DNA from: Omphalotus guepiniiformis
Taxonomy: Eukaryota > Basidiomycota > Agaricomycetes > Agaricales > Omphalotaceae
Assembly (NCBI GenBank): GCA_028554645.1
Contig: JAQOOI010000079.1
Location: 620,001 to 684,000 of the forward strand
DNA length: 64,000 nucleotides
Direction of reading: 5' to 3'
Shown: positions 1-35,659 of the stretch, piece by piece
Layout: every line of letters begins with the position of its first letter
How positions within the stretch are numbered: position 1 is the first letter of the stretch
Notes under the pieces: model-generated
What the model was told of the DNA's origin: nothing
Database searches by the model: none
The model's input: the letters and a program-made list of their open reading frames with translations, nothing else
Translations under genes and position numbers: made by a program

Positions 1-1131
1 ATAGGTTAGTTGAAAAGTCGCTAGCGGCGGTATGAAAACGTGACACGTACTAGGGGGTGCCAGAGGTGGATCGAGCATAGAGAAGTTGTGCGCCCAAGTA
101 GGAGGAGCTGCCGCGACACTAACCACCTCCATCTTAGCTTTCTTGGCAGGAGGATTGATGGTACTCTTATCCACCGCGGCAACTGCCTTAAGGTATTGCC
201 GTGAAGTAATAAGCATGCGTGGTATCTCAGAAAAGTGGAGATATCTTACGAGGTGATTAGTCGACGCGTGAGGCTATGAAAGGAGCGTTAAGTCAGAATA
301 ACATTGGGAGAAGGAATGGTGGTCGTACCCTTTTAACTGCCGCGACGCTAGGCTCAACCTTTGGAGTAAAGGGGGCAACGCGGGTAACTTCTTCAACTGC
401 TGCGAGGTCGAGAGTCTGAAGCGAGGTACATAGTTTTAGCAACAGAGCAAGCTGGCTCGGGGTAGGGTGGCGACCTACCGTGGTATTAGTAGTGGAATCT
501 GCAATAGAGGGGGATTCATCGTCACCCATAGCAATATCGCTACCCGCCGCGTCGTCGTCAACCTCCTCGTCACTACTATCAATACGAGCTTGGGATGCAA
601 TACGCTTGCGAATCTAGGAAAAAGTTTTAGTACCAGTGGTTATTCAAGAAAAAGAACTGATTACTTACGCGGCGGCTAGTACGAACGCGACCTTTGCCTT
701 TGACGGGCACTGGGGTTACAGCAGTTGGAACAGGAGCAGCCGCGGCGACTTTGGGAACCTCCTTGGGTTTACCAAACTGAACACATTTACCGCGGTACGG
801 ACCAAGTAAATGATGAGTTGGTGTATACTTCGCGGTAACTGGGTCCCGCGGCAGTTGTTCAAAGAAGAACAGAGTGAAAGTACGAATGTCAGCGTTAGCC
901 AACGCGGCATCAGGGTGAGCTTTCCAGAGCTCGAGCTAAAAAGAGTGAAGTAAGGCGCAGGAACAGAAGGCAGAACATTAGAAAACTTGCGAGTTTTTGT
1001 GCACACGACATCGCGACGCGATTAGCATCATCGGCACCACGTTTGACTCGACGCTCGCTAAACGACTTGTAAAGAGGTGCTACCTCTTCCACGAGAAACT
1101 GGACGTCAACAGAAGAAGTATCAGTAGACAT
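1..1131 (-). CDS. E4 antisense gene B-like, partial, function unknown
   Basis: A spliced minus-strand gene starting at the ATG 1131-1129 and running off the left edge. The first exon encodes a helical segment with VDVQFLVEEVAPLYKSFSE and ends in KLASF; after a short intron the next exon begins LELWKAHPDAALANADI and contains the aromatic stretch TLFFFEQLPRDP. Later exons are acidic (IDSSDEEVDDDAAGSD) and then basic and alanine/proline rich (PPAKKAKMEV), a nuclear-looking composition. Placement, an N-terminal helical domain followed by an acidic linker, and the order behind the zinc-cluster gene all match gene B of E2 (26486-27887), so I treat it as the E4 counterpart, although direct sequence similarity is weak. 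No enzymatic motif is visible. The intron boundaries are by eye. Confidence 0.6.
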
Positions 1132-1300
1132 AAGTGATTCAGATAGGAAGAACTTAGTGTTTGGAGGTCCTTTTATAACTGGCCAGGGCAGTCTGGACCA
1201 GAAGGAAACTTGTCCGCGTAGAATTCTAATTCCGCGCACCGTCCTTCAAAGTTGACGCGGTGGACATATGGTACTTTACCAAGCGTCGCGAGTGTTCTGA

Positions 1301-1339
1301 ACAACTGGGGACAGTTGTGATTTCAAAGATGGGGAAGGG
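1301..1339 (+). promoter_or_regulatory. E4 internal hairpin plus purine tract, upstream of gene B-like
   Basis: A perfect 7-bp stem with a GGGA loop (ACAACTG-GGGA-CAGTTGT, 1301-1318) is followed about 10 bp later by the purine run GATGGGGAAGGG (1329-1340). It lies 170 bp upstream of the gene B-like ATG on the minus strand. The arrangement repeats that found next to the true 3' purine tracts of E1, E2 and E4. Its role is not known: it could be a fossil purine tract or a start-region element for the antisense gene. Confidence 0.5.
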
Positions 1340-1615
1340 TCGTAGGAATAGAAAGCACCGCGTACAGTTTAGTACCGCGTAGAATCGCGTGAATTTGGGA
1401 AAAGTGCCGCGTAGAATTTCTTGAATATTTTCGATTTTATAGAACAAGGAAAATGTCACACAGTTTAAAATCACTCGAGACAAAGCTAATAACATTTCCA
1501 AGTAATAAAATAAAGAAAAAAAAACAAGCTCCGCGATACTACAAACACTACGAGACTAAGAGCTTTTACTTCCGCGGAACCAGAGCAAGAAAATGAACAG
1601 AGAAGGCAGGGACCA

Positions 1616-3893
1616 CTATTTCTGATATGCCTGATGTTCGGATGCCGCGTTGATTGATTTGAGCTGCCCAGCCTCGATGGCGGGCAGGATCTTCTCATCC
1701 ACAATCATTTGAGCAAGGTCACCACTAAGGCGGACCTGCGTCAAATAGTCGCGACCGAAGTTATAGTAACCCTGTACTAAAACATCCGCGAGTTCGTCGA
1801 TCTTGGCTTGAGCCATTTTCTGAATACCGTGCATCGCGGCAACTTGTTCATTCAAGCGGTCAGTAAGCATTGACGCTTCAAGTTGCAGAGACATAGCATC
1901 TAAAGGAAAGATCAGAGAAAAGGGAAAGTAGTAAGGGAGAAGACATACGGCGCGCAGAAAAGAGTCCGCGGTTGTGAAAAGCTTCATCCTCCAACGCGAT
2001 CTTGCGAATCCCATAACGAAAGGTGCACGCGGAGTCCTTCTTGCTAAGACACTCGTTACATGACTCCCCGGCCTTGACGAAGACGCAAGGCTTGCCGTGA
2101 ATAATGCACGACCCACAGCGAATGGAGGGCTAAGAAGTAATCAGAGAAGTAAGAAGAAAAAGTATCGAAGAACTTACCAGGTTCACGGAAGAAGCCACAA
2201 TCTGGCGAAGGCGAATGTGACTTGTCATCAGCGGAGGTACCATACCCGGTAGGTCATAGTTAATGAAACCATTTGCGGGGATGTTGTTAGCCGTATACCA
2301 GCGGACCCCTCCTTCGTAAGAGCCACCTACGGTAGTAGGCACCGCGGTGGCTTTGTCCCCCTTCTCGATGGGATGAAGGTTGTGAGGAATAAAGGCACCA
2401 AAGTGCTCCGCGGCGGGGAAAACTTTCTCGTACCAATATTGGGGGTAACCCTCAACTTCACGAAGGAACCGACGTCTAGTTTCGAGGTCGCCTGGGCGAG
2501 GAGAGGGAGTACGAAAGCGGTCGGCCTCTTGAATAGTTGACGCGGTAGTTTTTGTCGCTAGTTTAGACTTCTGCGAAGCTTTTCTTTTGCCCTGAAAAAG
2601 AAATAAGCAACGAAGCAGCTTAAACAGGGAAGGAACTCACCTTGGTTCCAACCTGAGTAGTAGCAGGAGGCTCCACGAAAGTCGAGGGTCCTGCCACAGA
2701 AGAAGGAACCGCGGAAGTTGAAGGTAGCACAGGTACAGCAGGAGGAACGGGTACGGTACTAGTCAGAGGAGAAAATGCGGCTGGGACACCAGAAGGAGTG
2801 AGAGGCGCGGGACCAGATTCCACCAGTGGGGACCGTGTAGGAGTGACAGGAATAAGGTTCGTAGGAACCGAAGGTTCCGCGGCAGTAACAGTGAACCCTT
2901 GCGATAAGTCCACAGGAGGGGGAGAACGAGAAAAAGACTGGGAAGTAGAGTGAGTAAAACTAGTTGGAATAACAGGAATTACTCACGAAGCGAGGAGTTG
3001 GCGCTGTGGGAGGCAAGTCTCGCGTCACTGAGGATACAGCAGCCACAATACCAACGGAGTTATCAGGCTCCGCGGAAGCCTCAGAATCACTCTCTACTCG
3101 TTTGCGCAAAGGGCCACGGCGACGCTTGGCAGCAGGAGGAGAGCCCTCGTTGGAAGACTCGACCGCCTCGTCGTCAAACTAAGGATAAGAATGAGAAGAA
3201 GAGTTAGTAGACAAGGAACAAAGGAGTACTTACTAGACGTGTGGGCCAGGGTTGGCGCTCCAAGTCAGACAAAGTACGAGGAGGCCGCGGACGAGTTGTA
3301 ACGGCAGTAGGCACAGGAGTCGCGGGAGGGAGCGAATAGGTCCCGTCACGGAACGCCAAAAAGTCATCGGCGAATTTCGCCTGATCCTCAGCGGTAACGG
3401 GAGTAAGCTACCGCAAGTTAGTTAAATACAACAGATAAAACGAACGCGGAACTAACCAGAGCAGATTGACTAGGATGACGAGCACGACGTTTCTTGAGAA
3501 CAGACAAAGCCTTATCACGGCGCTCTCGACGACGGCGTACGGGTGCTAAAGCCTCGGGAATGTTCGAAGGAATGGGAAGTACCGCGGAAGGTTGAACGGA
3601 AAGTTGCCCGGTACGGATCTGTTCAAGCAAGATAAGCTCCGCGGCGGATATAGACCGCTGTGAGCTGTCCGGGACGGAAGGCAAAGTAGAAGAGGGTCGA
3701 GGCGAAGCGTCGCGTCGTCTTCGTTTGTGTACGCGTGAAGTCGAGGGTTGAGAAGAAGGCATAATAAAGGCGGCCTCAGAAGCAGTAGGAGAAAAAGCCT
3801 ATCAAACGGAGCTAAGCAAAGAAGACACGCAAAAAGTACCGCGTCACTTACTATTAAAGAGTTATAGTCAAGGGGTTCAGCCTTGATAGGCAT
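1616..3893 (-). CDS. E4 antisense gene A: Zn2Cys6-like zinc cluster and coiled-coil protein
   Basis: About seven exons on the minus strand, from ATG 3893-3891 to a stop at 1616-1618. The start reads MPIKAEPLDYNSLI and splices to an exon rich in basic runs (HKRRRRDAS, RRRRERRDK), then an acidic exon with KRRRGPLRKR, then a long Pro/Ser/Thr-rich linker. A structured region (YPQYWYEKVFPAAEHFG, then GGVRWYTANNIP) precedes six cysteines spaced C-x2-C-x6-C-x8-C-x2-C-x7-C, encoded at roughly 2010-2110. That spacing satisfies the fungal Zn(2)-Cys(6) binuclear cluster pattern (seen). The last exon is a helical, probably coiled-coil, tail. In that family the cluster binds CGG/CCG half-sites and the coiled coil dimerises (known). 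A DNA-binding role here is inference. E1 is inserted 219 bp upstream of the ATG and separates the gene from its presumed start region at 17503-17728. Confidence 0.65.
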
Positions 3894-4112
3894 AAACCAG
3901 TGATGAAAGAGGGAGCAAAAAGTTGAAGTTCGACACCCGGGCGCTGAAGGTTATATACACCTCGCGGCGATGGGGTCCTCAGAATGGTGCCAGTATCAAG
4001 TTCCATTCCTAGAAGACGCGAGAGCAAAAGTTTGATGTATTACACACTTATTCAGGGTACGACATACAGCTTTGACAAAGAAGCGATGGCAATCCATTAA
4101 CTGAATAACCGG

Positions 4113-5913
4113 TGTCGCGACTAAAAGCGGTCTAGGCTTGAAATCATGCAGATTGAGAAAGATTTTGGTTGTTCAAACATTGGAAACTGAACAATGAGGA
4201 CTAGAGTTCACCCAGACTGCTAGTTGAAACATGAGAACACACTCAGTTACTCAAGCCTGAGTGTAGAGTTAGCTACAGTACATGATATGGTACTTAGCAA
4301 CTGTGACCAATGGGATCATGGAGAGAGATACTAGTTTTGCCTCTCACTTTGTATTGGAGTACCAATGTTCCATGCTAAGTTGAGTTGGTTAGACCCACCC
4401 TCTAAAGACTAGAAACTCTCATGAGTGTTGTTTGATTGTAATCCAAGGGAATAATGGAGGTTACAATTCAATCTGAGAAACATCTAAGTCCACTGGACTA
4501 TCTAACTCCAGCTGGTCTTGCTAACTCAGGTTGGCTGTAAAGACTGAATGCTGAGAGTGCAGACAATCTTGTATTGTGCTAACCAGAGAAATATGTTGTA
4601 CATTTGGTACTATGCTTAGGATGGTGTTACTACTGGTGAACCACCTTTGTCTGTTGGCTAAAGAGGAAAAATCCTCTAAGTCATTTCTGAAGAATGGAGT
4701 TAGATACTCAAGCTATCCTACCATGGAGCTAGATGTTGATTCTGGAGTATCCCTCTGAAATGTAACATCTAACTGAGTGATACCCTGCACCCAGACACCC
4801 AAATAGGGAAGAAGAAACGATTATTGGGACATAATACTGCCCATAGCTTGTTGCTAGAACCAGCTAAAAGGAGAAGTACCTCCTGGAGACAAATCAGATG
4901 CAAGATCTGGCCAGATAGACACATGTGCTACTGTACAGCTTGTGGATGATAGTAACAACGGAGTAGGGTCTAGATGACCTCTGAAACGAAGAAATAACCA
5001 CTGGATATGCTAGGAACCTCACCAGCAGCCCCAGTTAGGAAATCCAAAGGAGTTGCAAATTTCAAAATCATAAAAGATGTTGTCATATGGCACCATTCTG
5101 GACTGATATTGCGTGCTGTACACCCTGGTTAGATACCCTGGACTTGATTGCCAAGCCACTATATGGACAAAGCGATTTTTATAACAATTTTTATACCCAA
5201 GATACCTATACATGACAGTATCTAACTGAAAAATACCTACAAAAATACCTAAAAAGACACCAATCCCTGCTCAATTAGTCTTTCTGTTATCTATTCTAGT
5301 TACTCTGCTCAGATTCCCTTACATTTTCGAGATTTACTATATTTATTTTCTGACCTGTATATAAGAACTACCTACTTGTAGATATTTTTCCTTAAGTTAG
5401 GACTGCCTAGGCTCACTACCAAAGCAGAACTTCTTCTAGACGAAAATTGCCTGGCTCTTAGGAGTTCAGTTATAGAGAAATATACCAGTTGTGCAAACTT
5501 CTGTAAAGTCCCTTGTGGCAAACCTTGAGAGAGATACTGAAACTGTTGCTGTCCCTGCTGTTCTGTCTGTGCTGTTCTGCCTGCTGAAACTGTTGCTGCT
5601 ACTGTTCTGATTGATACTGTCACTGTTTGGACCATTGGATCGAGTTGCCCACTCTGATTATTGCCCTGAACCATCCCCTGAACCCCTGAGAAACTAGTTG
5701 CCCTCTGTCTTGAACCTGTGTTTTTGAGTTGCCCTGTCACTTATACCCTGTTCAGAGCGGACTGCAGACACTTGCTAGCTCAGTATTGAGTTCGATTGTC
5801 GAGTTTAACTGTGCGGAACCTTTGACAACGCCAGCCACACCTCCACAAACCCCCTAGAATTGAGTTAGAGGTTGTTTCTTGAGACTCCCTCTCAGTCAAA
5901 TTCTTGCACATTA
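4113..5913 (+). repeat. E1 5' LTR
   Basis: Begins TGTCGCGACTAAAAG and ends TTGCACATTA, matching the copy at 15698-17498. A TATA box (GTATATAAG, near 5356) gives a long U3 of about 1.25 kb and an R-U5 of about 0.5 kb. The R-U5 part holds CTG/TGT-rich low-complexity sequence around 5530-5640. Several GAGTTAGATACTC-type words are present (exact copy at 4697-4709). Confidence 0.92.
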
Positions 5914-5915
5914 TC

Positions 5916-5932
5916 TGGAGCCCACCGCGAGG
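5916..5932 (+). other. E1 candidate primer binding site
   Basis: TGGAGCCCACCGCGAGG starts two bases after the LTR end and begins with the TGG expected opposite a tRNA CCA end. The same sequence is found at the matching place in E2 (35641-35657, minus). I did not identify the primer tRNA. Confidence 0.6.
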
Positions 5933-6425
5933 GGTGGCTTTAGACTTGATATTTGAACCCTTCTGTGCTATTTGCACGCGTCTGGAACCTATCTGGACTA
6001 TTCCCCTGCTTGAACTTTGTTCTGTTCTGCAGTTAGCAACTACATCTTTATAGAAGTTGTTGCAAGAAAAACATAGCTATATACTTCGAGTTTGCTTTGT
6101 CAAAATTAGCAGCTCAAGGAAAAGCACCCACCCTAGACAAACTAGAAATTCTGTGAGAGCTGGAACAGAAGAGTTACCTCTGAACCAGTTACCCAGAAGG
6201 AAAAGTTCAAAAGGAAAGGAGAAAGAAGTGTCACCTGAACCTGAATCTAGTCCACTTTCGTCTCTATCATCCCTTAGTCCTATTCCTGAAAGGAATCTTC
6301 CAGAGTTTGCTGAACTTTCAGCTAGATACAAGAAAAATAAGAGGAAATTTCTTAATAGTCCTCAATTCTTTTCCTTGACTCATAAGAGAATACCTGTGAG
6401 GATTGTGAAAGATAAAAGAAACAAC

Positions 6426-8006
6426 ATGTCTACCACTGGTGAACAAGCTAATCCTGGAGAAGGTACTCAAGGGCAAGGTCCCACCGAGAATCTAACTCCA
6501 CGGAGCGAGATACTATCTTTGGGAATTGCACCTGATATTCAGATACCTGCCCCAGCAATCCTAGAGTTGCAAAATGAGAAATTACCGAAAGTTTCGAAGC
6601 ATGCACCCATATTTGACAAGAGACATCCATCTGAGTTAGTTGCATGGTTGGCAGAGTTAGAGAATATCTTTGTCTCCACTGGAACTAAGACTGATGCTGC
6701 AAAGGTCATGTTGGCTCTCAGATATATGGAGTTCCATACTAAAGCAGAGTTTCAACGGCTTGAAGCAGTCAGAAATTTAGATTGGCTTGCATTTAAGGAG
6801 GCTTTGATGAAGAACTTTCCTGAATCTGCAGACAGAGGTCTGGGATCAAGACAAAAGCTTTATGCTATTGTAGAAGAATATAAACTCATTGTGCTTGGTG
6901 CTATTCAGAAACTGATGGCATTTAAGAGAGAGTATGAGATTGAATATGAGAAACTGTCCTCTGGTGCTACACCTGTAGTATCTAACTCAGAAGCTGTTGC
7001 TGGTTTTTTGAGTGCATTGGATGAACCTTTCAGAAGAAAGCTTCTGGATCGCCTGGAAAACAAAGTAATCAATGGCCACATACATGTTCAGAGAGAAGAT
7101 GATCCTTTTACTCTGAAAGATGTCATGTCTGAGGCTGAGAAGCTCTGTTCTGTAAAAAGAGCAGGTGGTTATAACTTTGGTTTATTCATGAATGGTCCTA
7201 GCATAGCTGAGGGTTACTCCAGAGCGCTTCCAACACCTGAACAGAGTGCTACTAGGAAATTGTATGATCCATACCAAGTAGCAACTACTGTGAAGGCAGA
7301 ACCAGACCAATGGGCAATGAAGTTGTCTGCTACAGTGGATAGTCACCAGAATCAGTTTAATCAGATCAGACAAGCTCAGGAATCGAATTTGGCAGCTCTT
7401 GCAAAGCTCTCAGAGACAGTTGCTAACTTGGCAAAAATGACCCAAGTAACATCTAGCTCCATGAGAATGAACATGAATGCTCCAATTCAAAATTCTGGGT
7501 CTGGGATGAATTCAAATGGACACAATGGTGCCCCTAGGTCGTCTCAGGTCTCCTCTGTTCATAACAATTCTCACTCTGACTCTAATTGCTACATGTGTGA
7601 TGAACCTGGACATAGATCTGTGGACTGTCCCCATCAACTTAGATTTATCAGGTTGGGGTGGATGACCAAAAACAGTGCTGGTAAATGGGCATTAAAAGAT
7701 GGAGTGTATTGGCCAAGAGCTGATCCTTCAGATACTCGGTCTAAGAAAGATAAGATTGAGGAAATTGCCAGAAGACATGGTTGGGACCAATCTCCCACTC
7801 ATGTTGACCAGAATCTGTATGCTTTTGAAGAAGAGGATACTGCTGTAATGGCAGGCCCTTCTCAAAACAGTTCACTAGATGCTATAAACAGTCTTGTTGC
7901 GCAGTTCAGTCATGTTTGTACTACACTACAGAATTTAGCTCCAGTTGCTAACTCGGAGAAAAAGCAGATTCTGAAGAGAGATAGTACCTCTGAGTCGAAA
8001 AACTAG
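6426..8006 (+). CDS. gag: E1 Gag polyprotein
   Basis: Capsid/nucleocapsid protein that packages the element RNA. The first in-frame ATG is at 6426 (MSTTGEQANPG). The frame is open from 6057 but the upstream part has no ATG, so the longer form would need splicing or a non-AUG start. After a Pro/Gln-rich leader a helical Gag region starts near FDKRHPSELVAWLAELENIF and includes LDWLAFKEALMKNF. A CCHC zinc knuckle (C-YM-C-DEPG-H-RSVD-C) follows a Ser/Asn-rich linker. The stop TAG (8004-8006) directly follows a possible -1 slip site. The E2 copy differs by only a few residues. Confidence 0.9.
   Translation: MSTTGEQANPGEGTQGQGPTENLTPRSEILSLGIAPDIQIPAPAILELQNEKLPKVSKHAPIFDKRHPSELVAWLAELENIFVSTGTKTDAAKVMLALRYMEFHTKAEFQRLEAVRNLDWLAFKEALMKNFPESADRGLGSRQKLYAIVEEYKLIVLGAIQKLMAFKREYEIEYEKLSSGATPVVSNSEAVAGFLSALDEPFRRKLLDRLENKVINGHIHVQREDDPFTLKDVMSEAEKLCSVKRAGGYNFGLFMNGPSIAEGYSRALPTPEQSATRKLYDPYQVATTVKAEPDQWAMKLSATVDSHQNQFNQIRQAQESNLAALAKLSETVANLAKMTQVTSSSMRMNMNAPIQNSGSGMNSNGHNGAPRSSQVSSVHNNSHSDSNCYMCDEPGHRSVDCPHQLRFIRLGWMTKNSAGKWALKDGVYWPRADPSDTRSKKDKIEEIARRHGWDQSPTHVDQNLYAFEEEDTAVMAGPSQNSSLDAINSLVAQFSHVCTTLQNLAPVANSEKKQILKRDSTSESKN
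7997..8003 (+). promoter_or_regulatory. Candidate -1 ribosomal frameshift site, gag to pro (E1)
   Basis: Zero-frame codons read AAA AAC TAG after a G, giving the heptamer G-AAA-AAC right at the gag stop. A -1 slip enters the pro frame, which is open from 7994. It is one base away from the strong A-AAA-AAC signal of retroviruses, so efficiency is uncertain. The alternative is reinitiation at the pro ATG 8015. Confidence 0.45.
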
Positions 8007-8014
8007 AGGTTCCA

Positions 8015-9415
8015 ATGAAGGAGTTTGGTGTAGAAGATGTATTTTCACAACATCCTTCTCACAGAGCAAGTCAAACTCCTGAGGATTTTAATCTTGCAAA
8101 GAGAAAGAAAATGGAAGTCTTGTTACCCACCTTGAAACCATCTGAAAAGGAGAAATACAGACCCCCTGCCATGAGAAAAGAACAAGTTCGTTTTGAGCTA
8201 CCTGTTGAATCTGACACTGAGGAGCCTGAGTCTCCCTCTGACATGGAGTTCGATACTGCACGGAGAGTATCTAACCGACCATTTGACAATGTAAAGGCAA
8301 TTGATAGGCCACCTATACCAAAGGGGGCGCCTGTAGGGAGCCAACATAAGTCAAAGGAAGGTGATATTACTCAGTCTAGAACTAGAGAAGGAATGAATAG
8401 TGACACAAAGAATGCTATTGTTTATACAAAGCCTTTGCGCAAATCTGAGCCTGATTTCAAGCTTAGAAACTCATTGTTCAAACCTGGTCTTGCTGAAGAA
8501 ATAGCAGACAAAATCTTTAGGTCTGAGATAGATATTAGTAGTGGTGATCTCATTGCTATATCTCCTGCACTACAGAAAATCATGCAGAGAAAGTTGAAGA
8601 ACAGTAGAGTGTATAAACGGCCTATAAAGGCATTTGTTCAAGAGGTTAGGGATGAAGATGATCCTGAGTATGGTACTCAACTTGAGGAAGATGTTACTCT
8701 GTCTAAGGCAACCTATATGGTTAATGTTGATGATATGGCCTATGAGAGGGAAGATGTGTTTATTATCTTAGATGAAGACACAGGTGACCTTAAGAAAGGT
8801 TCAGTGGTTCACAAGGATGTTGTGGATCAATATCAACGAGATATTCCTTCAGAAGAAAGGGATAAGATCATTATAGTAGCCAGTCAGACTGACAGTCTAA
8901 AGGCAATCTATCCAAAAATAAACTACTCTGACCAGCAAATTGAGACAGTCATTGACAGTGGCTCTCAAATTGTATCAATGGACACTAGAGTTGCAATTGG
9001 TTTAGGCCTGAGATGGGACCCTGCTACAGTAATCCATATGCAAAGTGCAAATGGGCAACTACAAGCAACAAGGGGACTAGCTAGGAATGTACCATTTACC
9101 TTTGGGGAGATTACAATCTATATGCAGATACATGTAATAGATAAAGTGCCTTATGATGTTCTCTTGGGGAGACCATTTGATGTGTTAACAAGCAGTGTGA
9201 TTAGGAACTTTGAGACTGGAGAGCAAGAAATCACTATCACAGATCCAAACAGCGGAATGAAGTGTACAATGGGCACATATGATAGAGGTCATGGAGTAAA
9301 GGTCAAACCTGTACCCAGTGAACTGAAACTTGTCCCAGAAACACAAAAATCTTCGAGTATCCCACTCAAGCCTGAGGGGGAGACTCAAAATTTTCATCGG
9401 ACCTTAATGAACTGA
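8015..9415 (+). CDS. pro: E1 Pro: retropepsin-like aspartic protease ORF
   Basis: A 466-residue ORF one frame back (-1) from gag, with an ATG 8 bp after the gag stop. The N-terminal half is charged and low in complexity. The protease lies in the C-terminal third: the catalytic motif is IDSGSQIVSMD, followed by a hydrophobic/glycine flap region and VPYDVLLGRPF, the usual retropepsin closing motif (A/I-LLGRP). It would cleave Gag and Pol. It is intact and the same as the E2 copy. The stop at 9413-9415 lies 19 bp after a second slip site, so Pro is probably made both alone and joined to Pol. Confidence 0.85.
   Translation: MKEFGVEDVFSQHPSHRASQTPEDFNLAKRKKMEVLLPTLKPSEKEKYRPPAMRKEQVRFELPVESDTEEPESPSDMEFDTARRVSNRPFDNVKAIDRPPIPKGAPVGSQHKSKEGDITQSRTREGMNSDTKNAIVYTKPLRKSEPDFKLRNSLFKPGLAEEIADKIFRSEIDISSGDLIAISPALQKIMQRKLKNSRVYKRPIKAFVQEVRDEDDPEYGTQLEEDVTLSKATYMVNVDDMAYEREDVFIILDEDTGDLKKGSVVHKDVVDQYQRDIPSEERDKIIIVASQTDSLKAIYPKINYSDQQIETVIDSGSQIVSMDTRVAIGLGLRWDPATVIHMQSANGQLQATRGLARNVPFTFGEITIYMQIHVIDKVPYDVLLGRPFDVLTSSVIRNFETGEQEITITDPNSGMKCTMGTYDRGHGVKVKPVPSELKLVPETQKSSSIPLKPEGETQNFHRTLMN
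9388..9394 (+). promoter_or_regulatory. Candidate -1 ribosomal frameshift site, pro to pol (E1)
   Basis: The heptamer A-AAT-TTT sits in the zero frame (CAA AAT TTT) and fits the X-XXY-YYZ rule exactly; both tRNAs can re-pair one base back. It falls inside the 40-bp overlap of the two ORFs (pol frame open from 9376, pro stop at 9415). Pol has no early ATG, which supports frameshift expression. The E2 copy has the same heptamer at 32179-32185. Confidence 0.6.
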
Positions 9416-14610: not shown

Positions 14611-14679
14611 CTGCACATAAACAGGCAGTTAGATACTCAAGGTGACGAGGATACTTGAGAAAAATGTTTATTGTGTACA

Positions 14680-17498: not shown

Positions 17499-17693
17499 CC
17501 GGTATGTCCGGGAACTAACGTAACCGGACGATGAGGAATGAAGAGACGCGGCGATTTACCAATAAGGTAACGTGATGGCATGTGATGTGACAAGAAGGAG
17601 GGAGAGCGCTACATGAGTCAGAAAGAAGTTTGTGATATCCAGAAAAGGGAGGTTGATGCGCCTTTCCGGGATAGACCCTGAGTAGGACCCCAG

Positions 17694-17728
17694 CGACTGG
17701 GACAGTCGATATTTTAGTCAGGGGGAGA
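17694..17728 (+). promoter_or_regulatory. E4 terminal hairpin and polypurine tract
   Basis: The hairpin CGACTG-GGA-CAGTCG (17694-17708) is followed by ATATTTTAGTCA and GGGGGAGA, which abuts the E4 LTR at 17729. It has the same layout as in E1 and E2 although the sequence is unrelated in the stem. It lies about 445 bp upstream of the gene A start (3893) once E1 is disregarded, close to the 493 bp seen in E2. Confidence 0.65.
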
Positions 17729-18967: not shown

Positions 18968-21007
18968 CCGTGTAATTTATAAACGTGGGCGAAGACTAAT
19001 TTAGCGACTTGGCGCGCTTTGTAGTTAGTGCGAGATGGTACTAGATGTACCATAGCCGAAAATAGATCTATTATCACCGTGATTGAGTCGTAAACGCTAT
19101 CTCGGTCTTTGGATTCCGGTAGCGGTCCTACGAAATCAATACCTATCGCTTCCCAAGGATGAGAAGAGATTTTAAGTGAGTGAAGTAATCCACCAGGTTT
19201 CTGGTTAGAAGCTTTACTTCGTTGGCATGTGGTACAGCTTTCACAAAAAGTTTTCACATTCATTACTATTGTTTTCCACCACACATGGTCTCTCAAATAT
19301 GTGATCGTTTTCAGTGGTCCTAGATGGGCTAGTAACGAGTGAGCTTCCGAAATCAGGAATTCTCGGAGGTTTCGACCGTTTATTAAGACGTCAGGTATGC
19401 ATAGAAGTTTGCGACCATTGTTGTCCATATATAATAATTTTGTTTCTTTGTTATAGTGAAAGTTTCGGTAGTTTTTCGGATTCTCCAAAATTATATTGAA
19501 TATCGGATCTATTTCGTATCCCTTGGATATAACAAGTTCAATATTAAAATTCGGGTTTTTATTCTTTACAACGTTAAGCAGAGATTCGGAGTTCGGTTCA
19601 TTATTAGCCGATGGTGGTGGCAGTGTAGGTATTTGCCGATTGTTTGTGGGTCCATGTTGGTCCCCGTTGCTCGATTTCGAGATGTTCAAATTTTTGTCGT
19701 CTCTACTCCCATCCCCTAGATGCAAACCAGGGTCGTCGGTGGGCATCTCGATATCATCAGTATGAGAAGAAACATCGAGAGCGGGAGCAATCGTTGGCGA
19801 ACCAGAACCGGCATTAGGTTCAAGTTCACGAGGTTTGGGGCCTATAAGGTGAAATTTATGGGCCATACGGCGCGCAAATTCACGACTGGACTCGACACGC
19901 TTTGGACGAGGGCGCAGGTTTTCCGTAGTGATGGCATTGGCCTCCAGACCAACAAACACGGGCATGGTAACCAGTGATGATGGGCCTCGCATATCGACAT
20001 CCTCATCAAAAAGGGAGTATTCAGACGGGTGACGGACAGTACCAGGTGCGTTGTTCGAATATATGCGCGACAGGGCATCACTGAGGATGTTTTCAATGCC
20101 AGGAACATAGATAACCTCAAAGTTGAATTCACAGATGAACTGTAGCCATCGAGCCTGACGGCCGCTTAAGGCTTTTTGTTGTAAGATGTGTATTAACGGC
20201 TTATGGTCCGTATACCAATAAAACTTGCAACCTTGCAAGATATCACGATGACGACGCATTGTCTCGACACCTGCTAACATTTCCTGTTCGTGCACGGGGT
20301 AGTTTTGTTGTGCGGGGTTTAACTTTGCCGAAAAGAATGCGGCTACGCGTGCAGTGCGCCAATCATTTCCTTGAGATACCAAGCCACTAATACCCGTATT
20401 ACAAGCGTCTGTGACAATATTAATACGAGGTTTGCTTTCCCCATATTCAAGAGGTTTACGCGAGTGGTCGCGGAAGTCATCGGTATATCGCTTGATATCT
20501 TCGAAAGCACGCTGATGTATTTCAGACCAACGAAAAGGTACAGTTGCGCCGGCAATGCCGTGTAAGATGCCCATGGGGACCCTAATACGAGCGATGTCAT
20601 CGGCGAGGTAACCCACAGAACCGAGGAATCCGAGTAAAAGGTCTTTATTTGTGGGGACCTTCCAGTTAAGGACACAATCAACCTTCGCCGGGTCCATTCT
20701 AATACCATTATTGTCAATAACACGACCCAAAATTCGAAGCTCGGCCGGGAGTACCTGCATCTTTTTCCTGCTGATATAGAGCTTTTCGCGGCGTAAAACG
20801 TCAATGGCAATCCTGCAGTGGCGTACATGGTCCTCGAGGGTGTCAGAATAGATAATGATATCGTCCAGGTAGACATCAAGGAAGACACCCAAGTAACCGG
20901 AAAAAATATGGTTCATTAAAGCTTGGTACGTTGCCGGAGCATTACAATCTCCTTGTTGCAGGACCAAGCTAACCATATTACCATCAGGTGTGGTAAACCC
21001 GGTACGT
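18968..21007 (-). pseudogene. E3 pol fragment: end of RT, RNase H, start of integrase
   Basis: The reading frame continues that of 37462-37782 across the E2 insertion. Visible parts: RT with the catalytic YLDD (VYLDDIIIYS), RNase H with VTDACN, the YTDHKPL motif and SDALSR, a long Pro/Asn/Ser linker, the integrase zinc finger (HSLLAHLG with CESCTTCQ) and the first part of the integrase core (IGIDFVGPLP, VIIDLFS). The frame is lost where E4 is inserted, just after KLHG, so the second and third catalytic acids lie outside the window. It is a typical single-ORF Ty3 pol, different from the E1/E2 lineage. Confidence 0.85.
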
Positions 21008-22809
21008 TAATGTGCAAGAATTTGACTGAGAGGGAGTCTCAAGAAACAACCTCTAACTCAATTCTAGGGGGTTTGTGGAGGTGTGGCTGGCGTTGTCAAA
21101 GGTTCCGCACAGTTAAACTCGACAATCGAACTCAATACTGAGCTAGCAAGTGTCTGCAGTCCGCTCTGAACAGGGTATAAGTGACAGGGCAACTCAAAAA
21201 CACAGGTTCAAGACAGAGGGCAACTAGTTTCTCAGGGGTTCAGGGGATGGTTCAGGGCAATAATCAGAGTGGGCAACTCGATCCAATGGTCCAAACAGTG
21301 ACAGTATCAATCAGAACAGTAGCAGCAACAGTTTCAGCAGGCAGAACAGCACAGACAGAACAGCAGGGACAGCAACAGTTTCAGTATCTCTCTCAAGGTT
21401 TGCCACAAGGGACTTTACAGAAGTTTGCACAACTGGTATATTTCTCTATAACTGAACTCCTAAGAGCCAGGCAATTTTCGTCTAGAAGAAGTTCTGCTTT
21501 GGTAGTGAGCCTAGGCAGTCCTAACTTAAGGAAAAATATCTACAAGTAGGTAGTTCTTATATACAGGTCAGGAAATAAATATAGTAAATCTCGAAAATGT
21601 AAGGGAATCTGAGCAGAGTAAATAGAATAGATAACAGAAAGACTAATTGAGCAGGGATTGGTGTCTTTTTAGGTATTTTTGTAGGTATTTTTCAGTTAGA
21701 TACTGTCATGTATAGGTATCTTGGGTATAAAAATTGTTATAAAAATCGCTTTGTCCATATAGTGGCTTGGCAATCAAGTCCAGGGTATCTAACCAGGGTG
21801 TACAGCACGCAATATCAGTCCAGAATGGTGCCATATGACAACATCTTTTATGATTTTGAAATTTGCAACTCTTTTGGATTTCCTAACTGGGGGCTGCTGG
21901 TGAGGTTCCTAGCAGATCCAGTGGTTATTTCTTCGTTTCAGAGGTCATCTAGACCCTACTCCGTTGTTACTATCATCCACAAGCTGTACAGTAGCACATG
22001 TGTCTATCTGACCAGATCTTGCATCTGATTTGTCTCCAGGAGGTACTTCTCCTTTTAGCTGGTTCTAGCAACAAGCTATGGGCAGTATTATGTCCCAATA
22101 ATCGTTTCTTCTTCCCTATTTGGGTGTCTGGGTGCAGGGTATCACTCAGTTAGATGTTACATTTCAGAGGGATACTCCAGAATCAACATCTAGCTCCATG
22201 GTAGGATAGCTTGAGTATCTAACTCCATTCTTCAGAAATGACTTAGAGGATTTTTCCTCTTTAGCCAACAGACAAAGGTGGTTCACCAGTAGTAACACCA
22301 TCCTAAACATAGTACCAAATGTACAACATATTTCTCTGGTTAGCACAATACAAGATTGTCTGCACTCTCAGCATTCAGTCTTTACAGCCAACCTGAGTTA
22401 GCAAGACCAGCTGGAGTTAGATAGTCCAGTGGACTTAGATGTTTCTCAGATTGAATTGTAACCTCCATTATTCCCTTGGATTACAATCAAACAACACTCA
22501 TGAGAGTTTCTAGTCTTTAGAGGGTGGGTCTAACCAACTCAACTTAGCATGGAACATTGGTACTCCAATACAAAGTGAGAGGCAAAACTAGTATCTCTCT
22601 CCATGATCCCATTGGTCACAGTTGCTAAGTACCATATCATGTACTGTAGCTAACTCTACACTCAGGCTTGAGTAACTGAGTGTGTTCTCATGTTTCAACT
22701 AGCAGTCTGGGTGAACTCTAGTCCTCATTGTTCAGTTTCCAATGTTTGAACAACCAAAATCTTTCTCAATCTGCATGATTTCAAGCCTAGACCGCTTTTA
22801 GTCGCGACA
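21008..22809 (-). repeat. E2 3' LTR
   Basis: The minus-strand copy of the 1.8-kb LTR, one base longer than in E1 because of an extra C in a CCCCC run. It is adjacent to a polypurine tract at 22810-22820. Confidence 0.92.
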
Positions 22810-22843
22810 TCTCCCCCAAAGTAAAATAAGATCGACCTCGATC
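22810..22843 (-). promoter_or_regulatory. E2 terminal polypurine tract and hairpin
   Basis: On the minus strand: the hairpin GATCG-AGGT-CGATC (22830-22843), then TTATTTTACTTTGGGGGAGA, then the LTR. On the plus strand it lies about 460 bp upstream of the gene A start. Confidence 0.7.
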
Positions 22844-23302
22844 GTCCATGATGGCCAATATCGAGTTAGATACTACTTTTTCAGGTAGATAGTCACAGAA
22901 GTCAAGTCAATTGCTTTACTATCACGTTGACACCTTGTCACAGTGAACTGCCGTTAGGCAGACTTCTCGATTGAAAGACCGATCAGTACGCTTTTCACTC
23001 GGCATGCCTCGGCAATGCTCAATTCGGAGAAACCCGATGTCTGCATCCGTCGAAGTTCAGCCAAATATGGAAGACCCCTTTCGTTCTTCACATCTCACTG
23101 AGTCTCCCTATGGACGACTTTTCTAGGGAACTTGCTAACTCCATTTCTTTAGGAAGCGATGCCTCCATTGAGTTCGTGAGTCAACTCATTCTTCTTTCTC
23201 TCACGGACCGTTTCGGTCGTGTCATATATAGTTGAGATCCCCGTTCCATGGAGTCTCCCTTTCCCTTCTCGTTTCTCACTCTCTGCTTAGCGTGTACATA
23301 CT

Positions 23303-25655
23303 ATGCAGGCCAACAACTACCAGGCCCTTTCCACCGTCTGCTCTAAGCTTGGGGACTTCGATCGTCGACTCCGCGACCAATCATTTGAACATTATGGTGC
23401 AGGTCTCCGGCTCAAACTGATGTCCACTACTTTCGAGGAGGCAAAATTCGCTCTTGTAGGTTTTGTTTTCGTTTCTTATTTATGCCTCTACTAACGCGTG
23501 TTTACGCTGTATAGGCTCACGTCGCGTTGGTTTTTAACCGTTGTCAGAAGAATGAGACCCATTTGCCCGACTACTTCACTGGAACTTTCCTTGCCGCTTC
23601 GAATCTCGCGCTCTGGTTGCATCAACAGAGGCCAGGAACTTTCGTTCTGCCACCTTGGTGTCCTTCCAGGGCTCGGTATGACGATTTGCACAAAAAGTTC
23701 ACAGTGAGTTATTTAGTTCAGGGGTCTATTCCTTTTGACATCTAATGCCTCATTTCTTGTTTAGCTTCGGAATCTCTGGGAGCCTCTACCGCCTTTTCCC
23801 AAGTCTCTCCTAGGCCCTCAGCTTGAAGACGACGAGGACGATGAGGAAGATGACGAGATCCGCCTTTCCCCTATCGAACCCATTGCTTCCACTGCCAAAT
23901 CCACTCGTTCTACCAAGAAGACAGCTCCGGCTACGAAGACGAAACCTAAACCTGCCCTGACGCCGATGCCGGGTCGATCTGTGGTAAGTTTTAAGTTTCT
24001 CGCAGTGGATCCCTCCTGACTTATTCATTTTTCTAGTCGAAACGCAAGTCTCTGGATTCCGAGGACTCTGCCGTCTTCACCGACGAATCTGACGACGACA
24101 ACGCAGAGGTTCCTGATTCCGAGCCTCCGAGAAAGAAGACCCGGACCTCATTGACCAAGAAGCCTGAGGCTCCCAAATCTTCTAAGGTGAGTTCCATTTT
24201 CTCTTGCTTAGTTGTATTCATTTCTCATATGTTTTACAGGGCAAGGGTAAGCAAGCGGTGAAACCTCGCCCGAAGACTCGTTCTATTCGCGTGGAGGAAC
24301 CTGTCGAGGAACCGCCGGCGCGTCAAACTCGATCCAAAGCCGCTTCCACTTCGACCAAAACGACTCTCCCTGAATCCAGCGACGAGGAGGAAGTAGAGGA
24401 TGAGGAAGACAAGCCCAAAAAGAAGAATGAGGGGTCGAAGGGTGCTAAGGAGTCCAAAGTCGATCTCTCTGCTCCTCTTTGGCCGAATCGCGCGGGTTTC
24501 TCAACTACATCCGTGCTGAAGGCTCCCGGCGTTCATGACGAACCCCCCAATCTTCAAGTAGGTCATCTTTTTCATTTCTCAATATGGTCTACTAACCTTT
24601 CCTTCCTTTGTCCAGCGTGTCGATGGTCGCACCTTTCAACACCGGAACAAGGAGGAATATACCGACGTTCCCGGTATGTCCTTTCATTTTTCTTAAGTAT
24701 AGCTTTAGGCTAACAATTTGTCTAGATCGTACTGTCTTCGGGTGGCCTTACGGTCGTCCCGTTACACTTCAACAGCTCGTTTCTATTAATCGCTCGTTCG
24801 ACCGCGTAAGTATCTCATTTTTCTTATTGCAGCATCTTTTATCTGATACTTTTTACAGTTCTTCGGTGATTCCATCTGCGCAGCTTGTGTTGGCAGTACC
24901 CATTCCGATGGTCGCAAGTGTCGCCCTCAAATCAAGGAGAACTCGTTCGACTGGAGATGTAGTACCTGCGCCAAGGACAATCATGCGTGCAGTTGGACAT
25001 ACAGCCTCGAAGGTACCGATCAGATGCGCTGCCTTTCTTACACCTTAGCTCGCAGTAGTAGCGCTGGTGAGTTAATCTCATTTTTCTTATTGTATCAATT
25101 CAATTTCTAACTGAATTTCTCGTTTATCTAGTCATTGCACAAGAGGCGGGTCAACTCCAACTTCTTATCGACTCTTACGAGAAGATGCAGGAAGGGGTTG
25201 TCGCGCAGATGCAGGCCATGGAGCAGCTTCATGCTGGGATCATCGATCGTCAGGCGCATATCAAGGCATCGTGCAGGGATCCTCGACTCGTACTCCATCA
25301 GCTTAAGACTGGTGACCCCTCCTTCGAATACACCGACGAGCAGATGCGACTTCTCTGTACCGCGCTTGGTTGGGATGTCAACATCGTGTCTCGCGCCAGC
25401 TATATCTCGAAGAACAGCGCCGGCAATTTCATCGTGGTCGATCCCGAGGAGGATAAAGCCGAAGTTGGCCCATCTCATCCCTCCACGTCTCGAGCCAAAT
25501 CTATCGCTAAGAACACCGAAGAGCCGCGTCCAGCGACTGGTGCTTCTCACAACAATCCAGAGGTCGAGGATGATGAGGACGAATTGGACACCGAGAAGGT
25601 TCTCGCTCCCGCGAGCAGTCCACTACCTGAAGAGGATCATATCCCTTCAGAGTGA
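23303..25655 (+). CDS. E2 antisense gene A: six-cysteine cluster and coiled-coil protein
   Basis: Nine exons with regular GT-AG introns: about 23303-23455, 23515-23703, 23765-23983, 24037-24186, 24240-24557, 24616-24673, 24726-24806, 24859-25066 and 25132-25655. The frame stays open through all junctions. An N-terminal helical region (YQALSTVCSKLGDFDRRL, ALVFNRCQKNETHLPDYF) is followed by acidic stretches and nuclear-type basic runs (KRKSLD, RKKTRT, GKGKQAVK). Six cysteines follow FFGDSI, spaced C-x2-C-x10-C-x12-C-x2-C-x6-C, a stretched version of the Zn2Cys6 layout in the E4 gene. A helical tail (LQLLIDSYEKMQEGVVAQMQ) is probably a coiled coil. The order of parts equals that of the E4 gene, so the two are probably distant homologs. 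DNA binding is inferred, not shown. Confidence 0.75.
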
Positions 25656-26249
25656 CTCGCACACGAGGTTCCTCCGGCCCTTCTAGCGTATCTTCCTCAG
25701 CATTACGGTGATTCGTACGCAGCGTTGGACTGGTCATTTCTTTATCAGTAAACTGTTTGCATCTCGTGCAGGGTGACTCAAGTGTTCAACACACTGAGTT
25801 GCCCTTATATATATATCTTGTATTTCAGACACTCACTGTATTCTATTCAGATAATAGTACATGTAGAGTGTCTTCCATAGCCATAACAATGAGCTCCTAG
25901 AGCTCAAATGTATTTCATTTATCTTGTTTTCTTCTTTAAGTGTGAACTTTAAGTTGAAATGTTATAAAAGTCCGAGTATCCCTCTCCAGATATAGTATCT
26001 AAGTCGAGCTTCAGAGGGAGACTCCACGATTACAGGTTATATTCAAATAAAACTCTGTAAGTATCTTTATTTATTATGGATAAGTCAAGATTTATTTTGC
26101 CCAAGGTTTCCGCGTGAAGACAGAGTTGAACTCGGCAATCTTAAGCCGGCTAAGCCCTCAGACGGTCAAAGCTGTTCCAGATCTCTAGATCTTAATCTTT
26201 GAAAAATCAAAAATTACGCTCTAGAGTCATTGTTAACTTGTCTTTACTC
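25656..26249. other. Spacer downstream of gene A, no gene seen
   Basis: AT-rich, with a TATATATATA run near 25807. No ORF of note. It probably holds the 3' end of the gene A transcript. Confidence 0.5.
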
Positions 26250-26289
26250 TCTCCCCCAAAGCAAAATAAATTTCAACGTCCCCGTTGAA
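26250..26289 (-). promoter_or_regulatory. E2 internal purine tract and hairpin, upstream of gene B
   Basis: On the minus strand: TTCAACG-GGGA-CGTTGAA (26272-26289), then ATTTATTTTGC, then TTTGGGGGAGA (26250-26260). It is almost the same as the terminal tract but no LTR follows. On the plus strand it is about 200 bp before the gene B ATG. Confidence 0.6.
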
Positions 26290-26485
26290 TCGCATGGACA
26301 GGCCTAGTCAAGAAATTTTGACTTAGTAACCCGGTCCAGTTTTTCAATGTCCAAATCGAGAAGTTAGGTATAGAACTAGTATAAAAGGTTTCCCAAATCG
26401 TTGACGACGATTCAGCACCATAAGATACTTGGTTCTACCCTTTCTACATCCTTCCCAATTCTCATACTTCTTATACTTCATTACT

Positions 26486-27887
26486 ATGCCCCCAAAAGGT
26501 CCCAAAGGTTGGCCTGAGCGCCCTGAGTGGGTAGCAACTACTCAACGTTATATTTCTCGTGCTACTGGAGCTATGGAGGCCAAGGACGTCGATACTGAGC
26601 TATTGGGCATGTTGATCACCGCCCTAGCTAGTCATCTTGTGAGTAACATCTAACTCAATGTCCGCCATGTTCCAGTATCTAACTCTGCGTTTCTCTGCTA
26701 TAGAAGAAGTCCCTTCCTGCTTTTGCAGTTGCCAAGTCCGAAGAAGCCTTTGGTCTATATGACAAAGGTGTTTCCTTGGTGTCTGACACCCTCAAGAAAT
26801 ATTCAAGCATTCCTGAGCCTGACACTTTTGCTCATATCAAGATCTTCAGGGAGGACTTGGTTAAGCGCAGGGAGAGGGATCTTCCACCCAGAAAGCGCAA
26901 AGTAAGCATTTTTCTCGAATATCCTTGTCACCTGGAGTAACTAACTGCATGTTTTCGTGCAGCCAGCGAAAACTCCTGAGCTTGTTGATGACGACGATGA
27001 TGAGGATGAGGAAATCGAAGTTATTACAGGCGACGGAGACGTTACCGTTGAGTATCTAACTCCATAGTGGCCTGAATAATTTCTCATTTTCCTTTCCTTT
27101 CATTTTTCAGATGGCTGATGGACCAGCCCTGGGACTTTCTGCGTCCATTCATGCTCCCAAGAAGGACAGCAAGGACTCAGGCAAGGTTACCAACACCCCT
27201 AGTGCAGCTGCTAAGACTGCTAAGGACAAAGTAGTACCTACTACTCCAGTGGTAGGTATCCTTTCTCAGCCTTATTATTTCATCTCTTTTACTTACTTTG
27301 AACGATTTTTGGACCATATAGGCCAATCCAATTCAGTCCAAAGTGGTAAGTGTTATTTTACTCTGAGTTGCTAAGTACAGCATGACTGACTGTTTCTTGC
27401 TCCTATAGCCTGAGACTGTCCCAGAAACTCCCAAGGCTGGTAGTCAGAAGAAGCCTCGCATTGAGAAGCCCTTTGTCAACCTTAGTGAAGAGACAGAGCG
27501 TGAGTATCTAACTCAATCTGGTACCGCGTCGAGCATCCAACTCTATGCTTTACAGATGAGCGCAAACTCAGGGAGAGTGGAGAAGAGATAGTCAATCGTA
27601 TTACGGCTTTATTTCCGTTCATGGACCTTGACCACTTCTCTCCAGAAGTCCTTCACTCTATTTCCAACTTTCTGAGGACTGAGCTCAGTGTTCACCAACA
27701 TGCTATCCAGTATCACCATTCTCAGTACAGGTTTGCCTACCAGGAATATTCCAAGTTGGAGCAGCTCAGGAAGGCGAAAGAGAAGGCCAATTGTGCTTCT
27801 CAGGATCCCTTGCAGGCAGGTCCAGCAGTAGCTTCAGACCCAGCTCCATTTCATGAATTTCCCCCTGCAGACTTAACACTGAACTAG
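26486..27887 (+). CDS. E2 antisense gene B: acidic charged protein, function unknown
   Basis: Seven exons: about 26486-26638, 26704-26901, 26963-27046, 27111-27251, 27322-27345, 27409-27499 and 27554-27887. The third donor is GTTGAG, weaker than the rest. The product starts MPPKGPKGWPERPEWVATTQ and has a helical N-terminal domain of about 110 residues ending in a basic PPRKRK. Then come an acidic run (six or more Asp), a Ser/Thr/Pro/Lys linker, and a C-terminal helical domain (RITALFPFMDLDHFSPEVLH). No cysteine cluster or enzyme motif is present. Introns 1, 3 and 6 contain GAGTATCTAACTC-type words that overlap the donor and a CTAAC branch-point-like site. It is transcribed toward pol, ending 215 bp from the pol stop. 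The E1 copy lacks exons 1-2. Confidence 0.75.
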
Positions 27888-28102
27888 ATGTTACTTTTTA
27901 GCACCTTAGTTTCAATGTATAGGTAGTATACACGTCACTGGTACATCGCATAGGACATCCTCGAGTATTTAGAACATCCTTTTTCGTTCATCTTAGTAGT
28001 TTAGAACTACTTTTTACACTTTTATATATTTTTCATTGAGCTAGATAGTCTCTCTCGAGTATCTAACTAGCTACTTTTTCAAATACTGTGTGTTTTATCT
28101 TT

Positions 28103-33558: not shown

Positions 33559-33566
33559 TGGAACCT

Positions 33567-35657: not shown

Positions 35658-35659
35658 GA

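Follow-up and report, generated by a model that had tools for sequence, protein, structure and literature searches.

How a transposon recognizes its own copies and escapes silencing is an open question, for which the VANC proteins of Arabidopsis DNA transposons provide a sequence-specific example. The question is raised anew by a stretch of 64,000 nucleotides from the basidiomycete Omphalotus guepiniiformis (contig JAQOOI010000079.1, positions 620,001 to 684,000, or C78:620001-684000 in our numbering; hereafter the window). The left part of the window is made up of Ty3-type retrotransposons nested in one another, and two of these, E2 and E4, carry two spliced genes, A and B, on the strand opposite to gag-pol. 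What might such genes do for the element? We find that four of the five family groups examined in this lineage are dotted with short motifs of their own, on both strands and in non-coding as well as coding sequence. These dispersed motifs, overlooked in an earlier, sequence-only reading of the window, are our main evidence on a possible accessory function of the two genes. The interpretation that we favor, and to which we give slightly less than an even chance, is that A binds the motif of its own family and thus marks the copies of that family, most likely as a VANC-like protection against silencing.

A two-gene cassette antisense to gag-pol

In both E2 and E4, the cassette lies antisense between pol and the 3′ long terminal repeat (LTR), with A adjoining the LTR. 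The coordinates, strands and gene order assigned to A and B in the sequence-only reading proved exact to the base (Table 1). The predicted gene A comprises 9 exons and 632 residues in E2 (A2), and 8 exons and 641 residues in E4 (A4). The predicted gene B of E2 (B2) comprises 7 exons and 340 residues, with one weak donor site. That of E4 (B4), which is truncated by the window edge, was modeled on a copy on C76 (5 exons, 404 residues), in which intron 1 (local positions 6904-6958) is of the GC-AG type. All models assume GT-AG or GC-AG introns, and therefore the splice rule itself is no evidence for the genes. The models of AE4c and AG7 (in which the zinc exon is skipped) and the tails of AF2 and BG5 are unreliable; AF2 was shortened for the substitution analysis.

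The ratio of nonsynonymous to synonymous substitution rates (dN/dS) is 0.12 for A2/AF2, 0.15 for B2/BF2, 0.17 for A4/AF3 and 0.21 for B4/BE4c; pol gives values from 0.11 to 0.15, and gag a value of 0.14. The values for A are rough, because dS for A (2.2-2.6) is close to saturation. Exon lengths are also kept, namely those of exons 1, 2, 6 and 7 between A2 and AF2 (153, 189, 58 and 80 bases) and those of the last three exons between A4 and AF3 (414, 181 and 284 bases). Judged by these two features, the view that A and B are genes under purifying selection is supported. Their introns could survive retrotransposition because the genes are antisense to the genomic RNA.

Gene B had been described as acidic, which is true of B2 (overall isoelectric point 5.9) and not of B4 (8.6). 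Acidic-hydrophobic stretches that resemble what we take to be the pattern of a SUMO-interacting motif are seen in B2, around residues 126-138 (EEIEVI), and in B4, at residues 387-393 (VPLIDMT).

The cassette had also been thought to occur in two unrelated families, and selection for an accessory function was proposed on that ground. Unrelated families were rejected by the alignment of pol, in which E2 and E4 share 51.8% amino acid identity over 1286 aligned codons, and 56-58% at the C-terminus. That is, E2 and E4 belong to one Ty3-type lineage, and the shared layout of the cassette is therefore explained by inheritance. To survey this lineage, the 42.5 Mb assembly was searched with the pol C-terminus, and the best 150 of 280 candidates were scored. 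The matches listed fall into groups at ~98-100% (E2), 97-98% (F2), 81-83% (G6-G8), 79% (G5) and 56-58% identity (E4/F3), and in each group examined, i.e., E2, F2, G5, G6-G8 and E4/F3, B and A are found antisense between pol and the LTR.

Among the matches listed for A, we took 100 places, with several exon matches per place. At 78 of these, pol is found in antisense at a distance of 3-5.5 kb (within a span of at most 6.5 kb downstream), and at none is there a nearby pol on the same strand. No stand-alone host copy of A was identified among the 100 places, 22 of which have no pol match among the best 150 of 280 pol places. The expectation that homologs of A lie antisense inside LTR elements was borne out at the 78 places. 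Selection for an accessory function retains purifying selection, the shared layout and this strand bias (78 antisense, 0 sense) in its favor, and loses the unrelatedness of the families. Relatives of pol number 1073 at E ≤ 1e-10, those named among the 120 matches listed being from Lentinula, Mycena, Armillaria and Moniliophthora; scans of viral contigs and genome contigs with the pol alignment yielded no confirmed locus.

Family-specific motifs dispersed along the elements

A motif was first spotted in the introns of B2, as the recurring word GAGTTAGATACTC. Within the window, GTTAGATAC is confined to E2 and to E1, an E2-family copy inserted in E4, with no occurrence outside these two elements. 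Genome-wide, GTTAGATACTC occurs 469 times, compared with 12 for the reversed word. E4 is instead dotted with CGCGG, a word whose density elsewhere in the window is 0.15-1.3 per kb (Table 1).

Counts per element were made with one LTR per element and compared with 40 dinucleotide shuffles each; in the shuffles as well as in the data, a palindrome counts once per strand. By this measure, GTTAGATAC occurs 13 times in E2 and 10 times in F2 (0.1 expected in either case). CGCGG occurs 136 times in E4 (20.4 expected), 136 times in F3 (21.0) and 120 times in E4c (16.9); CTAGACC and CTCGA occur 20 (1.6) and 88 (32) times, respectively, in G5; and CAGATT occurs 47 times in F2 (13). Outside their own families, and in three controls, none of these five words exceeds a z score of 2.2. 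The controls were part of a chromodomain Ty3 element (4.9 kb; the chromodomain was judged by eye), part of the element E3 (7.4 kb) and window positions 45001-64000 (19 kb of flank). In a free word search, the top z scores were 13-24 in E2, F2, E4, F3, E4c and G5, and at most 6.5 in the three controls, a value also reached by shuffled sequence; in G6 and G7 they were at most 6.8. In the latter two, the word ATAAAG, being one-stranded (21+/1- and 18+/2-), was not retained as a motif.

The motifs of E2, F2, E4/F3 and G5 are found in LTRs, introns, intergenic DNA and the gag-pol frames, on both strands. The strands are balanced, with 70+/66- for CGCGG in E4, where 29 per strand are CCGCGG palindromes, and 43/45 for CTCGA in G5. 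The LTRs of E1 and E2 contain only short arrays, of 2-3 motif copies. Two trivial sources of the motifs were considered and rejected. Beyond the core words the flanks carry little information, and an inserted repeat is therefore not the origin of the sites. Chance or base composition was discarded on the basis of the dinucleotide shuffles, a second-order Markov model and synonymous shuffles.

The last of these concern gag-pol, for which 200 synonymous-codon shuffles were made. None of the 200 reaches the observed number of CGCGG in E4 (61, with a mean of 12.6 in the shuffles) or F3 (59 vs. 12.7), of CTAGACC (12 vs. 2.2) or CTCGA (41 vs. 19.6) in G5, of GTTAGATAC in E2 (5 vs. 0.23) or F2 (2 vs. 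0.15), or of CAGATT in F2 (24 vs. 7.8). E2 pol has the motif at none of the 32 positions at which CGCGG occurs in E4 pol; at 7 of these, the two proteins have every residue in common. E4 and F3 are 64% identical across the A block and have 36 and 38 CGCGG there, of which 13 are at shared positions. Thus, the density of the motif is kept while the positions turn over. The CAGATT sites of F2 are new relative to E2, in that 13% are fully conserved, compared with a background of 30%, whereas conservation in F2 of the GTTAGATAC sites of E2 exceeds the background (46% vs. 20%). F2 (C32:39149-55673) has this second motif, CAGAT(T/G), mostly new with respect to E2, beside the older GTTAGATAC that it has in common with E2, and a replacement of one motif by another is possibly under way. 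The spacing of CGCGG is more even than random, with 0 of 500 simulations as even as E4 and 2 of 500 as even as F3; this test left out gaps of 2 bases or less, which arise where a single palindrome is counted on either strand.

A zinc-cluster-like exon in gene A

Seven aligned clusters from A (A2, AF2, G5, G6, G8, A4 and F3) have in common the pattern C-x2-C-x(6-10)-C-x(8-12)-C-x2-C-x(6-7)-C. The pattern of the fungal Zn2Cys6 cluster we take to be C-x2-C-x6-C-x(5-12)-C-x2-C-x(6-8)-C. The spacing in A4 (x6, x8, x7) fits this pattern; the first loop is longer in A2 and AF2 (x10, x12, x6), G5 (x8, x11, x6) and G8 (x8, x8, x6). The cluster is probably followed by a helical stretch in the reliable models of A. 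A profile of the seven clusters has as its top match among solved structures AlcR, a Zn2Cys6 DNA-binding protein, with an E value of 0.01. The site of AlcR is WGCGG, and the CGCGG of E4 suits the Zn2Cys6 class. Pfam assigns no family above cut-off to A2, B2, A4 or B4.

Profile comparison with hhalign aligns all six cysteines of the A2-type and A4-type clusters (P 0.0018, probability 14.7%; P 0.064 for a reversed control). The same comparison for the whole A proteins, with two sequences per side, yields no link, and that between B2-type and B4-type proteins detects no homology (P 0.25). The correspondence between the two cassettes on which the sequence-only reading relied is therefore weakly suggested for A, through the cluster only, and is not recovered for B. 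No homologs of A from other species were found for residues 390-641 of A4 (1943 candidates) or residues 360-570 of A2 (381 candidates), which are weak negatives, as the cover of spliced fungal genes in the set searched is uncertain.

Exchange and loss of gene A

E4 and F3 are 97-100% identical in the LTR, gag, pol and B, 58-64% identical over most of A, and 99-100% identical thereafter. Between the two, A has a dS of 2.15, compared with 0.05 for pol. Rapid evolution of the protein is thereby rejected as the cause of the divergence in A, and we conclude that A has been exchanged between backbones. The exchanged A genes of E4 and F3 have a similar cluster, and both backbones carry the same motif. 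The comparison is that of two near-identical E4-type elements, C74:744517-758896 and C76:295319-309670, which differ mainly in gene A.

In other copies A is missing. E1 lacks gene A as well as exons 1-2 of B, both replaced by another segment. A 911-base junction query that includes this segment matches 5 places at ~100% identity, namely E1 and four others; the other 13 matches are short and 69-76% identical. The A-less derivative accounts for 5 of the first 15 pol places among the matches listed (98-100% identical to E2), all with the 1364-residue frame unbroken, and E1, whose LTRs are identical, keeps the motif. That is, an A-less sub-family has been amplified, so that A must either act in trans or be dispensable. 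Members of this sub-family may rely on A encoded elsewhere, by other copies.

A possible self-recognition system and its alternatives

A zinc-cluster gene, motifs that are symmetric between the strands and specificity by family are together most simply explained if A is a sequence-specific DNA-binding protein that reads sites scattered over its own family. In the mechanism we propose, A would bind the dispersed motif of its own family via its Zn2Cys6-like six-cysteine cluster, and this binding would mark every copy of the family. The marked copies would remain open to transcription despite silencing by the host, as is the case with VANC, and B would be a partner of A. Because A would act in trans, A-less copies that keep the motif could ride along. 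Of the steps in this proposal, anti-silencing is the least secure; that a DNA-binding protein serves self-recognition stands on firmer ground. In its most general form, the proposal is of a retrotransposon self-recognition and anti-silencing system, in which a diffusible, antisense-encoded zinc-cluster protein, A, common to all copies, recognizes a family “password” that point mutations have spread over the full length of the element, coding frames included, password and reader co-diversify, and readers recombine between backbones; this we put forward as a possibility, with the balance tilting against it.

To what extent do the data point elsewhere? A could simply activate transcription of B and of the element that carries it, much as antisense regulators of retroviruses do, with the dense motif only boosting the LTR and cassette promoters. 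The Zn2Cys6-like cluster would suit such a role, as would the fact that motif density is highest in the LTR (13.7 per kb in E4; 2.7 per kb for CTAGACC in G5); moreover, antisense genes that possibly bind DNA are discussed as regulators of plant Retand elements (PMC11963269). In E4, however, the sites are evenly spread and continue throughout gag-pol, far from promoters, at 8.8 per kb, i.e., about two thirds of the density in the LTR, and we consider an activator of this kind unlikely. A negative regulator, which would coat the DNA of its own family to limit transposition, either as copy-number control or as immunity between A types, could account for divergent A alleles on near-identical backbones (E4 vs. 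F3), as if A types were mutually exclusive, and for the successful amplification of A-less copies. Selection should nevertheless purge sites of self-repression rather than gather them, and E4 and F3 have the same motif despite their different A alleles; this role for A thus seems to us improbable.

Another view is that the motifs are read by a factor other than A or B, such as integrase, Gag or a host protein, or that they result from a family-specific mutation process, while the cassette has another job. The tie between A and the motif is indirect, G6-G8 have A and only a weak motif, and F2 and G5 have two motifs each, all of which would be accommodated. Yet the motifs differ between families of one genome, and therefore a host-wide mutation bias or a single host factor is no explanation. 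Both strands are alike, contrary to what is expected of a signal in RNA or for Gag, and the pol genes of E4 and E2 are homologous, yet E2 has the motif at none of the 32 motif positions of E4 pol. We allow this view a low, though not negligible, chance. Lastly, A and B could act as RNA, with antisense transcription regulating the element through double-stranded RNA, as proposed for plant antisense ORFs (open reading frames; PMC7264820). A role of RNA alone would not need the coding capacity of A and B, which appears to be under purifying selection, and we regard this alternative as very improbable.

The binding of family motifs by A also has to be weighed against a number of observations that do not favor it. 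As to the protein, the spacing in A2 (x10, x12) falls outside the Zn2Cys6 pattern assumed above, and E2, whose cluster loops are longer, has a motif without CGG. The AlcR match is weak and made of two short stretches joined; Pfam Zn_clus (PF00172) stays below cut-off, with a best E value of 0.2 and matches to 3 of 7 clusters; and single-sequence structure models of two exons were uninformative (predicted local distance difference test score of 50.6). As to the motifs, the excess is smaller against a second-order Markov model (136 vs. 34 for CGCGG in E4, 88 vs. 50 for CTCGA in G5), the AGATAC core has no excess in gag-pol of F2, where 26 of 200 synonymous shuffles reach it, and even spacing is not seen for CAGAT in F2 or for CTCGA in G5. 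The genome-wide excess of CTAGACCC (G5) is modest, at 1449 vs. 1096 for the reversed word, and E2 also holds some CAGAT(T/G)(G/C) (24 vs. 10.5 expected). The two motifs each of F2 and G5 have no obvious explanation in a single DNA-binding protein; two readers, or two halves, would be needed.

G6-G8 have A and B and only a weak TCCGG signal: 22 vs. 7 expected in G7 (z 5.4 in one count and 4.2 in another; 22 vs. 10 against the second-order Markov model), 18 vs. 8 in G8 (z 2.5) and 10 vs. 5 in G6 (z 1.8). A single TCCGG lies in the piece of G7 pol analyzed, which is no excess; for G6-G8, the analysis covered the elements apart from gag and part of pol. E4, F3 and E4c are one backbone and thus not independent, and E2 and F2 are related. 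The amplification of the A-less sub-family with an unbroken pol frame may mean that A is simply dispensable. As regards anti-silencing, the observed/expected ratio of CpG is 0.48 in E2 and 0.50 in F2, compared with 1.13 in E4, all young copies in the same genome; E2 and F2 may therefore not have been spared CpG methylation, and may differ from E4 in methylation history.

Comparison with known systems

The closest parallel is with the VANDAL elements of Arabidopsis. There, YAGTATTAY is the motif bound by VANC21, and VANC6 has targets of its own; these targets are often tandem repeats in non-coding DNA, and two motif-less coding probes were bound much less by VANC21 (PMC5735166). The two systems have in common that the element carries an additional gene, that a short motif specific to the family is repeated within it, and that the motifs of related families differ (PMC5735166, PMC10398659). 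In O. guepiniiformis an enriched family-specific motif is found in E2, F2, E4/F3/E4c and G5, and weakly in G6-G8. VANDALs, however, are DNA transposons with a VANA transposase, whereas the present elements have LTRs and gag-pol. The VANDAL motifs are non-coding and often in tandem, whereas here single sites are dispersed, also in gag-pol. A differs further in its cysteine cluster.

The position of the cassette, with antisense ORFs between pol and the 3′ LTR, is that of the antisense ORF of Retand-type plant Ty3/Gypsy elements (TRP28), whose product is predicted to bind DNA (PMC11963269, PMC7264820). The present elements differ in having an intron-rich unit of two genes and a motif dispersed along the element, and the TRP28 domain (PF04195) is absent from the Pfam matches of A2, B2, A4 and B4 at E ≤ 1. 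With Zn2Cys6 proteins such as Gal4 and AlcR, A shares six cysteines in two C-x2-C halves, AlcR as its best structure match and, in E4, a CGG within the motif; it differs in the longer loops of E2, F2, G5 and G8, and in the location of the cluster, which falls within the final third or half of A. A CGG triplet is bound by Gal4, TerR and Pho7; for TerR and AlcR, binding is monomeric (PMC5559640, PMC4360782). Fungal DNA transposons are described in PMC12730594 as carrying TET/JBP dioxygenase genes, with none reported in retrotransposons. The likeness is that these fungal elements, too, are thought to bring their own counter-silencing gene; A2, B2, A4 and B4 have no Pfam match to a TET/JBP-type domain.

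In the accessible portions of the open-access literature, we found no fungal retrotransposon described as carrying a zinc-cluster gene in antisense or as painted with a motif, and no report of a retrotransposon self-recognition or anti-silencing system of this kind. If our proposal is correct, such a strategy arose also in a fungal retrotransposon lineage, with the motif written through coding sequence, and several natural protein-motif pairs (E2, F2, G5 and E4) would be on offer.

Elements in the window

Table 1. Positions of the elements, genes and motif sites of the window.
Feature	Position	Strand	Details
E2 gene A (A2)	23303..25655	+	exons 23303-23455, 23515-23703, 23765-23983, 24037-24186, 24240-24557, 24616-24673, 24726-24805, 24859-25066, 25132-25655
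A2 cluster exon	24859..25066	+	C-x2-C-x10-C-x12-C-x2-C-x6-C
E2 gene B (B2)	26486..27887	+	exons 26486-26638, 26704-26901, 26963-27046, 27111-27251, 27322-27345, 27409-27499, 27556-27887
E4 gene A (A4)	1616..3893	-	exons 3893-3852, 3798-3457, 3407-3234, 3178-2987, 2937-2641, 2591-2178, 2129-1949, 1899-1616
A4 cluster exon	1949..2129	-	C-x2-C-x6-C-x8-C-x2-C-x7-C
E4 gene B (B4)	1..1131	-	cut by left window edge; end ~300 bases further left
GTTAGATAC sites in E1 (n = 17)	4699, 5128, 5218, 6978, 8267, 9684, 11821, 11985, 13506, 14032, 14061, 14513, 14628, 15634, 16284, 16713, 16803		starts
GTTAGATAC sites in E2 (n = 16)	21695, 21785, 22215, 22865, 26675, 27052, 27504, 28059, 29580, 29744, 31881, 33298, 34587, 36347, 36437, 36867		starts
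CGCGG in E4	1..4112; 17499-18971		52 (12.7 per kb); 17 (11.5 per kb); CCGCGG palindromes counted once per strand
E2	21008..37461	-	complete Ty3-type element; 5′ LTR 35660-37461, 3′ LTR 21008-22809, 99.9% identical; target-site duplication ACGT
E2 gag ORF	33567..35519	-	CCHC zinc knuckle
E2 protease ORF	32158..33579	-	
E2 pol ORF	28103..32197	-	Pfam RNase H and integrase H2C2; Y-x-D-D of reverse transcriptase visible in alignment
E1	4113..17498	+	E2-family copy without gene A, inside E4; LTRs 4113-5913 and 15698-17498, identical; target-site duplication CCGG
E1 remnant of B	13686..14670	-	exons 3-7; position inferred from E1/E2 alignment
Segment replacing A and start of B in E1	14671..15554		inside the 911-base query
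E4, left part	1..4112	+	3′ half split by E1; extends leftward past window edge
E4, continuation past E1	17499..18971	+	3′ LTR 17729-18967

The order of Pfam domains in E2 (zf-CCHC, aspartyl protease, RNase H, Integrase_H2C2), together with its LTR pair, is that of a Ty3-type element; Pfam RVT_1 was unmatched in E2 pol. Its gag, protease and pol (28103-35519) form three overlapping ORFs in different frames, of 650, 473 and 1364 residues. This layout recurs in E4, F2 and G5, and would require two frameshifts or re-initiations. E2 is itself inserted in another Ty3 element, E3, which is partly seen and cut at the E4 border. E1 is 99.5% identical to E2 over the aligned parts, and the LTRs of both are ~1.8 kb long, with the ends TG...TA. 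The 4-base target-site duplications, at 4112/17499 (E1) and 21007/37462 (E2), both have CG at their center. Because E1 is inserted in E4, the 3′ LTR of the latter lies beyond E1; full-length copies of E4 are present elsewhere in the genome, e.g., on C76, with identical LTRs of 1239 bases. A search of Rfam gave no matches. In what is probably host flank, positions 62309-62869 hold a fragment of an XPG-type nuclease (Pfam XPG_I).

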